Below the pieces are notes generated by a model. The model had not been told where the DNA came from. It did no database searches and saw only the letters and a program-made list of their open reading frames with translations. 40,186 nucleotides of DNA from Candidatus Zixiibacteriota bacterium (GTDB taxonomy: Bacteria; Zixibacteria; MSB-5A5; UM-FILTER-46-8), in NCBI GenBank assembly GCA_026983835.1, contig JALSTH010000070.1:1-40186 (forward strand), given 5' to 3'. This document shows positions 11,073-14,765 of this stretch, in pieces. The translations under genes and the position numbers were made by a program. Each line of letters starts with the position of its first letter. Position 1 is the first letter of the stretch.

Positions 11073-13316
11073 TTAGCATTGTGAATAACCGCATCCGGGG
11101 CAGATCACGCAACCGGACACAAACTCCAATTTGGATTGACATTCGGGGCAGACTTCATTTCCGATATCCATATCCGGTTTTGGTTTTTTACCATTTCCGA
11201 AATGATTATGCAGAACTTTTGCAATAGCGTCAGGAATCGATTTTATCAGACCTCCGTTACCATAGACCTGACTCGCTCCGCCGATCCCTCTCAATTGATC
11301 GATGATGTCGTTAACATCTATTCCGGAGCGTAAGGCGAGGGAGATTAATCTGCCGATTGCTTCGGTGTCCGCCATTGTGGAGTGCCCCGATTTGCCGATT
11401 TGAGCGAACACCTCGAAAGGTTTCTCATCGAGCATATTAATAGTTACATACAGATTACCGAAGCTTGTCGTTATTTTTTCGGTTATCCCTTTTAGCACTA
11501 TAGGACGACGTTTTACAGTGCGAACAATTCCTTCCTTGGCGGGTTCTTTTTTCTTTACCGATAACACCTGATTTCGGCGGCATCCATCCCGATAAACGGT
11601 TACCCCCTTGCATCCCAATTTATAAGCTAAAAGATATGCGGCGGCGATATCCTCCCTTGTTGCCGAATTCGGGAGGTTGATGGTTTTCGAGACCGCATTA
11701 TCGGTGTATTTCTGAAATGCCGCTTGCATTCGGATATGCCATTCGGGGGAGATGTCGTGGGAGGTAACGAATATCCGCTTGACATCATCGGGTATATCCT
11801 CAAAATCTTGAATGGATCCTCTCTCGACTAATTTTTGCACGAAATCTTCACTGTAAAATCCCAATTCCTTGGCCTTTTCCTCCAATATCGGATTTAATTC
11901 GGTCAACTTTGTGTTATCCATTACATTGCGTACATATGCAAGAGCAAATGCGGGTTCTATGCCCGAAGAGGTTCCGGCGATGATGCTGATAGTCCCGGTA
12001 GGAGCAATCGTCGTTATGGTGGAATTCCGCAGCCTGACCGCATTCTGTGGATTTTCATTGAATACGGAATCCTTCCAGTTAGGAAACACACCGCGGGTTT
12101 TAGCCAATTCTCGAGATGCACTTTGCCCTTCCTTGCGGATAAATGACATAACATCTTCAGCCAATTCAAGAGCCTGTTCGGAGTTATACGGAATCCCCAA
12201 CCGGAAGAGCATATCAGCCCAGCCCATCACTCCCAAACCTATTTTTCTGTTTTTCTTTGTTTCGATATCGATTTGTGGAAGGGGATATTTGTTCGCCTCG
12301 ATGACATTATCGAGGAAATGGACACTTATCCAAACGGTTCTCTTCAGTTTATCCCAATCGACCTCGTATTTATACATCGATTTTGGATTTGCCGAATCCA
12401 CAACTGCCCGGAGCATTTTAGATAAATTAATCGATCCCAAATTACAACTTTCATACGGGAGGAGGGGCTGTTCTCCACAGGGGTTGGTGCTTTCATACAA
12501 ACCGATCTTTCGCACCGGATTGCCATCGTTCATACGATCGAGGAATATCACCCCCGGTTCGCCGGTTTTCCATGCTTGAGAGACTATTGAGTTGAAAACC
12601 TCTTTGGCATCGAGGCGTAATGGTTTTCCATCCGTAAAAAATAAGTCGTTGGTCTGCGGATCTATTATGGGGAACTCCTCTCCTTTTTCCACAGCTCTCA
12701 TAAAATCATCCGATGCGCAGACGGAGATATTGAAATTTGTTAGCTCGCTTAAGTCCTCTTTGGAGGAGATGAACTCCTTTATATCCGGATGGTCAACGCG
12801 AAGAACTCCCATATTTGCGCCACGGCGGGTGCCTCCCTGCTTAACCGCTTCGGTAGCGGAATTTATTACTTTCATAAAACTGATGGGACCTGAAGCAACG
12901 CCGGAGGTGGTGGCGACTTTTGAATCTTTGGGCCTTAATCTGGAAAACGAAAAACCTGTTCCCCCGCCGGATTTATGAATAAGCGCCGCTGCCTTAACCG
13001 CATCAAAAATAGACTCCATCGAATCCTCGATAGGAATAACAAAGCAAGCGGACAATTGCCCCAATGGTCTGCCTGCATTCATCAGCGTAGGGGAATTGGG
13101 GAGAAACTCCAATGATGCCATCATCTCGAAAAATTGCTCGGCTGTTTTAGCTATCTCATCACTTTCCGCACCATATTTGGCATCGGGCGCCGCTATAAAC
13201 CGGGCGACTCGGTGGAAAAGCTGTTCGGGGCTTTCTATAACATTACCGTTCTCGTCCTTGATGAGATATCTTCTTTCCAAAACTACGATGGAATTCTTAG
13301 TTAGCTCTAAATTCAT
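11073..13316 (-). CDS. nrdJ: adenosylcobalamin-dependent ribonucleoside reductase (class II)
   Basis: This 747-residue enzyme reduces ribonucleotides to deoxyribonucleotides using adenosylcobalamin, so it does not need oxygen. The active-site loop STNPCGEQPLLPYESCNLGS holds Asn278, the thiyl-radical Cys280 and Glu282, with redox cysteine Cys291 and its partner Cys91 in LSACFVIP. Glycine-rich SGGGTGFSFSRLRP and PTGTISIIAGTSSGIEPAFA are further family blocks. The C-terminal tail has four or five cysteines in a zinc-ribbon-like arrangement (CPECQ ... CPGCGYSQC), probably the shuttle for thioredoxin-driven reduction. It is 53 bp downstream of thyX in the same direction, so both steps of oxygen-independent dNTP/dTMP supply are co-transcribed. 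Confidence 0.96.
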   Translation of the reverse strand: MNLELTKNSIVVLERRYLIKDENGNVIESPEQLFHRVARFIAAPDAKYGAESDEIAKTAEQFFEMMASLEFLPNSPTLMNAGRPLGQLSACFVIPIEDSMESIFDAVKAAALIHKSGGGTGFSFSRLRPKDSKVATTSGVASGPISFMKVINSATEAVKQGGTRRGANMGVLRVDHPDIKEFISSKEDLSELTNFNISVCASDDFMRAVEKGEEFPIIDPQTNDLFFTDGKPLRLDAKEVFNSIVSQAWKTGEPGVIFLDRMNDGNPVRKIGLYESTNPCGEQPLLPYESCNLGSINLSKMLRAVVDSANPKSMYKYEVDWDKLKRTVWISVHFLDNVIEANKYPLPQIDIETKKNRKIGLGVMGWADMLFRLGIPYNSEQALELAEDVMSFIRKEGQSASRELAKTRGVFPNWKDSVFNENPQNAVRLRNSTITTIAPTGTISIIAGTSSGIEPAFALAYVRNVMDNTKLTELNPILEEKAKELGFYSEDFVQKLVERGSIQDFEDIPDDVKRIFVTSHDISPEWHIRMQAAFQKYTDNAVSKTINLPNSATREDIAAAYLLAYKLGCKGVTVYRDGCRRNQVLSVKKKEPAKEGIVRTVKRRPIVLKGITEKITTSFGNLYVTINMLDEKPFEVFAQIGKSGHSTMADTEAIGRLISLALRSGIDVNDIIDQLRGIGGASQVYGNGGLIKSIPDAIAKVLHNHFGNGKKPKPDMDIGNEVCPECQSKLEFVSGCVICPGCGYSQC

Positions 13317-13369: not shown

Positions 13370-14053
13370 TTATCCTTCATCCTGTGCCGGATATGCTGAC
13401 TCATTTTCATAATCGATAACAAAATCGGAGAAAACTATGGGAGCCTTTTCCTTCATAGTTTCCAACATTTTAAGGCAGATCCTCCTTATTTCCCAGTGCG
13501 CTCTGGGATGACATCTAACAGTGAATATATGCCTTAATTCCCGAAAATTAGCGGTTATTACAATCTCCGATTCGGTTCCACCCGGAAGAATATACCTTGC
13601 ATCCTCTGGAGGAACGCCCGCCGAAAGAAGCTGCTCATACAACTGATAACATTTATCTTGAACTTCCAAAAATGCTTTTTCACCATCTATAAAAGACCCG
13701 TTCGACTTTATTTGCGCCGCTTTGACCGTGTCAGGAATAATACAATGATAATCTTTGGTTTTTTCCCTGCCCGGTTTGTCGGCATAGCATACATAGCGTT
13801 GGCTTTCCTGCGATGGGGACATAAGTCTGTGACGAACCAACTCGTGGGTAAAAACCCGGCTACCGCCTTTTATCCGAAAGGTGGCGACTGCGTGTTCCAG
13901 GACTGAGTGATGACCCTTGCGGATGACCTTTCTTATCAATTCTTTTGCCGAATGGGGGGGATTATAGCGGTGAAAACTGAGATAGCAGGTTCTTGTTGCC
14001 CGCTCTATCACATCCTCAGCATTCGGCGTAATTGACATCAATTCAACTTCCAT
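13370..14053 (-). CDS. thyX: FAD-dependent thymidylate synthase ThyX
   Basis: This 227-residue flavoenzyme makes dTMP from dUMP with methylene-tetrahydrofolate and NADPH. The ThyX motif RHR-x7-S is seen as Arg74-His75-Arg76 to Ser84 in ELVRHRLMSPSQESQRYV. HHSVLEHAVATFRI is the upstream conserved helix, and FRELRHIFTVRCHPRAHWEIR carries the second conserved block. Length fits the family. It is the first gene of the thyX-nrdJ unit. Confidence 0.95.
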   Translation of the reverse strand: MEVELMSITPNAEDVIERATRTCYLSFHRYNPPHSAKELIRKVIRKGHHSVLEHAVATFRIKGGSRVFTHELVRHRLMSPSQESQRYVCYADKPGREKTKDYHCIIPDTVKAAQIKSNGSFIDGEKAFLEVQDKCYQLYEQLLSAGVPPEDARYILPGGTESEIVITANFRELRHIFTVRCHPRAHWEIRRICLKMLETMKEKAPIVFSDFVIDYENESAYPAQDEG

Positions 14054-14130: not shown

Positions 14131-14160
14131 ATTTTAGCAGAAAAACCCCTTTCGGGTCAA
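14131..14160 (-). promoter_or_regulatory. promoter of the thyX-nrdJ operon
   Basis: Reading leftward, TTGACC (14160-14155) and TAAAAT (14136-14131) are 18 bp apart, and the -10 is extended by TGC. This is one of the best sigma-70-like matches in the window. The predicted 5' leader is about 70 nt. Confidence 0.55.
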
Positions 14161-14188
14161 GACATTTTTAGTAATATTTTAATAAAAA

Positions 14189-14235
14189 ACACAACATATT
14201 GAGTAGCAAGGGATTAATACCACAATATAATGTGG
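14189..14235. promoter_or_regulatory. tandem NrdR-box-like palindromes upstream of thyX-nrdJ
   Basis: Two 16-bp sites, ACACAACATATTGAGT (14189-14204) and CCACAATATAATGTGG (14220-14235), match the NrdR box consensus acaCwAtATaTwGtgt at about 14 and 13 of 16 positions. The 15-bp linker makes the centres 31 bp apart, three helical turns, which is the usual spacing of paired NrdR boxes. NrdR represses ribonucleotide reductase operons when dATP is high. The sites lie ~30-75 bp upstream of the best -35 of thyX, farther than usual, but other -35/-10-like elements overlap them. Confidence 0.65.
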
Positions 14236-14474: not shown

Positions 14475-14765
14475 TTGACTCGCTCCCAGCCGAAGTTCAA
14501 ATCGTATAATCATTTCTTGAATCTACCGGTTTCCTGTTCATTGCCTGAGGAAGAAGCAGCTGAATTCGCTCATATTATTTGGTTTTACTTGCTTTTCAAT
14601 TCTCATCGGCATTCATTGGGGCAAAACGGCGGAGAGGGAGATTCCAAAACCCCATCGGTGCATTTTAGATCCGGCAAGATGGTGTATCTCCCGATGAGGG
14701 AGGAGGGGATTTATTTACGAGAGCAGATAACCGGGTCGGGGGTGTTGAAGCAGGGAATAAGTTGA
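14475..14765 (+). CDS. hypothetical small protein overlapping the Ppx/GppA start
   Basis: This is a 96-residue frame without recognisable domains or membrane segments. The only supporting feature is that its TGA stop overlaps the TTG start of the following phosphatase gene (TTGA), an arrangement seen in translationally coupled genes. The start codon is not preceded by a clear ribosome site, and the composition (several His, Ser and Arg, little periodicity) is weakly protein-like. It may be non-coding leader or gene debris. Confidence 0.2.
   Translation: MTRSQPKFKSYNHFLNLPVSCSLPEEEAAEFAHIIWFYLLFNSHRHSLGQNGGEGDSKTPSVHFRSGKMVYLPMREEGIYLREQITGSGVLKQGIS

Follow-up and report, generated by a model that had tools for sequence, protein, structure and literature searches.

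In a genome of the Zixibacteria, a pair of NrdR boxes stands ahead of the thyX-nrdJ operon, and the spacing between this operator and a conserved promoter downstream of it is strictly kept among relatives, which is what is new here. Motif, spacing, location at a ribonucleotide reductase (RNR) operon and presence of nrdR confirm, at the level of sequence, that the pair is a genuine NrdR operator. We consider it likely that dATP-loaded NrdR represses thyX-nrdJ through a helically phased action on the upstream or UP-element DNA. The window, i.e. the whole stretch of 40,186 nucleotides that was analyzed, is contig C70 of a 2.53-Mb assembly that is 94.7% complete. The features concerned are the following.

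11073..13316, minus strand: nrdJ, adenosylcobalamin-dependent (class II) ribonucleotide reductase, 747 aa (NF006417, 1148 bits; PRK08665/TIGR02504)
13370..14053, minus strand: thyX, FAD-dependent thymidylate synthase, 227 aa (PF02511, E 1.1e-60; TIGR02170, E 1.5e-56)
14131..14136, minus strand: -10 hexamer TAAAAT, an extended -10 with TG two bases before; 18-bp spacing
14155..14160, minus strand: -35 hexamer TTGACC; TTGAC is kept at the same offset in relatives
14161..14188, minus strand: A/T-rich spacer of 28 bp from the proximal box to the -35, in UP-element-like position
14189..14204, minus strand: promoter-proximal NrdR box, ACTCAATATGTTGTGT in the transcribed orientation, 14/16 against the consensus
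14205..14219, minus strand: inter-box linker of 15 bp; centre-to-centre distance 31 bp, or three helical turns
14220..14235, minus strand: promoter-distal NrdR box, CCACATTATATTGTGG in the transcribed orientation, 13/16 against the consensus, kept in relatives
C40:29112-29552 (another contig): nrdR (TIGR00244, E 5.8e-56; PF22811 and PF03477), with an intact Zn ribbon and one ATP-cone

The two 16-bp boxes, ACACAACATATTGAGT at 14189-14204 and CCACAATATAATGTGG at 14220-14235, are near-palindromic and match the NrdR consensus ACACWATATATWGTGT at 14 and 13 of 16 positions, respectively. Their joint score is 27/32, whereas in 100 Markov-shuffled windows the top score for two boxes 15-16 bp apart was 19-23; the two near-consensus sites with a 15-bp linker noted in the preliminary description are thus borne out. 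A linker of 15-16 bp is also the length reported for most bacteria (PMC12051234). Across the whole assembly, the box at 14189-14204 is the sole zero-mismatch match to the search motif, and the other sites found at two or fewer mismatches have no good partner box, with none at 14-17 bp; the next-best single site (C4:6166) lies inside a coding ORF. An Rfam search of the window returned tRNA only and no RNA leader.

Profile searches of both genes upheld the earlier placement of the boxes upstream of thyX and a class II reductase. The genes share the minus strand and are separated by 53 bp. Pfam lists no ATP-cone in NrdJ, and as nrdR accounts for the sole ATP-cone match of the assembly, NrdJ lacks the allosteric cone. 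Neither NrdD nor NrdB had a match in the assembly, where class II is the only reductase class detected.

The genome was also expected to carry nrdR, and an intact copy is present. Its product keeps D15, R17 and RRRR26-29 when compared by eye with NrdR of Streptomyces coelicolor, in which these positions contact DNA (PMC9110341). The gene overlaps by 4 bp a gene of the dCMP/cytidine-deaminase family, whose product, given its inferred substrate, may supply dUMP for ThyX. Read by eye, the gene order at L001:824-1806 is SAM hydroxide adenosyltransferase-like, deaminase-family, nrdR, TatC-like, and it is the same in L055 and L056. With regard to nrdR autoregulation, no box pair was found in the 3.3-kb nrdR locus, most of the DNA ahead of the first gene falling outside this locus. 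Whereas the NrdR of the window genome has one cone, a form of ~252-255 aa, in which two ATP-cones follow the Zn ribbon, is encoded in Zixibacteria families f1 (genus g3), f3 and f17 (L055:1501-2259, L056:1498-2256, L057:1501-2268); a literature search found no paper describing tandem ATP-cones in NrdR.

Conservation of the operator was examined in two rounds. In the first, 18 Zixibacteria contigs were retrieved by thyX alone, the relatives of the window thyX at 60-77% identity being all Zixibacteria. There, thyX adjoins nrdJ in 16 of the 18 (L027 has ~2.8 kb inserted between them) and paired boxes occur in 13 of 18, the upstream DNA of L025 being masked. The second round covered 133 genomes of the phylum and 50 readable thyX genes of the clade, from which three were left out as unscorable: G098 because of masking, and G026 and G027 because nrdJ was not matched at E 1e-60. 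Boxes are present in 42 of the 47 scorable thyX-nrdJ operons, so that conservation ahead of thyX-nrdJ, on which the preliminary description depended, holds. Nearly all relatives have a linker of 15 or 16 bp. Several families (f9, f13) have a weak distal box that matches at about 9-11/16. Among the distant thyX genes examined (from WOR-3, Aminicenantes, Planctomycetes and other groups), none has boxes upstream or an adjoining nrdJ. In the large family f6, which mostly has nrdR, most of the sampled nrdJ genes (L148-L161) have no clear upstream NrdR boxes.

The presence of the boxes follows that of nrdR. The five box-less operons (5/47) belong to G141 and to four genomes of family f16, and nrdR is detectable in none of these, while it was found in 37 of the 42 box-bearing genomes, the other five being 74-83% complete. 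This co-occurrence has a Fisher p of 1.6e-4 with kinship ignored, and comes down to about two losses that are independent of each other. At the same place in G141, a decayed site can still be made out by eye. As the operons lacking boxes come from genomes lacking detectable nrdR, this comparative evidence ties the DNA site to the NrdR protein.

In order to search independently of thyX, we used a pattern consisting of the box core, 29-31 bp and TTGAC, with the reversed pattern as a control. Matches were obtained in 49 of 133 genomes, against one match for the control, and 27 of the 30 matches with loci are ahead of thyX or nrdJ. The other three look like chance and have no good second box. Four genomes in which no intact clade thyX was found keep the same spacing ahead of nrdJ (28 bp in G085, 29 bp in G146, 18 bp in G020 and G021), and for this reason the box-promoter geometry may predate the thyX linkage. 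Separately, in G098 (G098:C1:1727982-1728372, L073; 1276150, L110) the thyX promoter occurs a second time, together with a box and no more than ~27 thyX codons, in addition to a full thyX elsewhere; this reflects duplication or an assembly effect.

The boxes lie between divergent genes and, being near-palindromic, could in principle serve the plus-strand Ppx/GppA-like gene that begins at 14762 rather than thyX-nrdJ. We regard this as very improbable: the start of that gene is more than 500 bp away, the profile search shows no deoxynucleotide role for it, and the boxes of relatives are upstream of thyX or nrdJ with their spacing fixed to the promoter on the thyX side.

This spacing varies little. 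The distance from the end of the proximal box to the -35 is 28 bp in 34 operons, 29 bp in 4 and 27 bp in 2, and a shorter gap of 17 or 18 bp, one helical turn less, is found in 2 more. Between the -35 and the thyX start, by contrast, there are anywhere from 57 to 432 bp; the fixed element is therefore the stretch from box to promoter. We scanned for promoters relative to the boxes, initially in 14 operons and then in 40. At the fixed offset the promoter scores above 6 in 40/40 operons, with a mean of 10.2, and at other offsets this occurs in at most 7% of operons. With a thyX transcription start predicted at about 14124, the operator would occupy about -65 to -111 and so lie beyond the core elements of the single conserved sigma70-type promoter, unlike the E. 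coli sites examined and the majority of cases described. A short terminator-like hairpin, GACCCGAAAGGGGTT, followed by a T-rich run is found between the thyX -35 and -10 (14144-14158, minus strand) and is probably due to chance.

Two options had been proposed in the preliminary description, unusually distal boxes or an additional promoter inside them. The former is the better supported: a conserved promoter is found 28 bp past the proximal box, whereas none inside the boxes is conserved. A stronger version of the second option, in which the main promoter is located within the boxes (e.g. with its -35 in the linker), NrdR blocks it sterically and the downstream TTGAC promoter is secondary, deserved attention because overlap between NrdR boxes and the polymerase site is frequent (PMC9110341) and because E. 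coli nrdH and nrdD carry a -10-like sequence inside box 2. Fair promoter-like matches do occur near the boxes in L016, L023, L028 and L029. However, none is conserved at a fixed offset: in or near the boxes, the best mean score over the 40 operons is 2.5, with 5% above 6, versus 10.2 and 100% downstream. Nor would a secondary promoter require strict spacing from the boxes, and this arrangement is unlikely. The NrdR boxes do not overlap the RNA polymerase site, given that 28 bp separate the proximal box from the sole conserved -35 downstream of it; their membership among NrdR operators stands despite this because published exceptions exist (PMC12051234).

The DNA between the operator and the promoter has a distinct composition. 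In the alignment of relatives, the spacer is 83% A/T versus 62% upstream of the boxes, and its A/T maxima repeat about every 10 bp. UP elements, which bind the alpha C-terminal domain of RNA polymerase and raise promoter activity, are A/T-rich tracts found at about -38 to -59, and the phased A/T tracts of the spacer are located at this position. Box-less promoters also retain the A/T-rich UP-like sequence, for which reason it may serve basal promoter strength rather than being an NrdR device.

With the proximal box near -72 or -62, NrdR might instead activate thyX-nrdJ by touching the alpha C-terminal domain in the manner of a class I activator. The centre of that box is at about -72.5 with the 28-bp spacer or -62.5 with the 18-bp spacer, and class I CRP positions are similar. 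NrdR of Pseudomonas aeruginosa has been reported as an activator of topA (PMC4409342), but deletion of nrdR generally raises RNR expression in the bacteria studied (PMC9110341), and genomes devoid of both boxes and nrdR keep the same kind of promoter without the operator. As known NrdR binds DNA at high dATP, activation would moreover amount to positive feedback, and we judge it highly unlikely.

Repression thus remains the preferred reading, with binding and repression at thyX-nrdJ predicted from the arrangement of sites and a dATP response expected by analogy with NrdR of S. coelicolor and E. coli. At high dATP, the NrdR tetramer would occupy both boxes and lower transcription from the promoter at 14160-14131, so that thyX and nrdJ would be turned down together. 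The repression of RNR genes by NrdR is usually explained by a direct block of the polymerase site (PMC9110341). Here, repression is most likely exerted via the upstream DNA, because the operator is in fixed phase with the core promoter but outside it, and abuts the A/T-rich stretch. From about -65 to -111, NrdR cannot cover the -35 and -10. The geometry suggests an action against RNA polymerase: bound NrdR may bend or wrap the upstream DNA or trap it in a curved state, or alternatively may block the alpha C-terminal domain from the A/T-rich stretch. dATP-loaded NrdR binds DNA as a tetramer and bends it sharply (PMC9110341). More tentatively, and with less confidence than for repression itself, we propose that NrdR, acting outside the core promoter by controlling the alpha C-terminal domain contact or DNA wrapping, could be the sole transcriptional dATP sensor of a thyX-nrdJ operon with a cone-less reductase.

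An operator in fixed phase 28 (or 18) bp upstream of the -35 suggests a route for NrdR other than promoter blocking, and the phased spacing makes this idea directly testable. It is natural to suppose that dTMP synthesis and ribonucleotide reduction are controlled in concert, with one dATP sensor setting the two together. No paper linking an NrdR box to thyX was found in literature searches, nor one on NrdR in Zixibacteria or on NrdR together with thymidylate synthase, regulon and dATP; this is not proof of novelty.

Among known systems, the Zixibacteria operator resembles those of E. coli nrdHIEF and nrdDG, which also consist of two 16-bp boxes with a 15-bp linker ahead of RNR operons (PMC12176259). 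However, the proximal box (box 2) of E. coli nrdH and nrdD overlaps the -10-like sequence, whereas the Zixibacteria boxes end 28 bp before the -35, and thyX is the first gene of the operon, unlike in the E. coli operons. As in S. coelicolor nrdRJ, for which the bound tetramer has been solved structurally (PMC9110341), an NrdR pair is found at a class II reductase. In S. coelicolor, nrdR is part of the nrdJ operon, whereas the window genome has it on another contig behind the dCMP-deaminase-like gene; likewise, a direct block of promoter or polymerase access has been proposed there (PMC9110341), whereas the Zixibacteria operator is upstream of the promoter. The placement is not wholly new, because the boxes of Streptococcus pneumoniae nrdHEF and the distal pair of Listeria nrdAB are also wholly upstream of the -35/-10 or of the pair at the polymerase site (PMC12051234). 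The Streptococcus linkers are 24-26 bp long, in contrast with 15-16 bp in Zixibacteria, and in Listeria a further pair overlaps the polymerase site, whereas Zixibacteria have one pair and a conserved gap of 27-29 or 17-18 bp to the -35. The Zixibacteria case is set apart from known NrdR systems by its strict phased spacing, its single upstream pair and thyX as the first gene.
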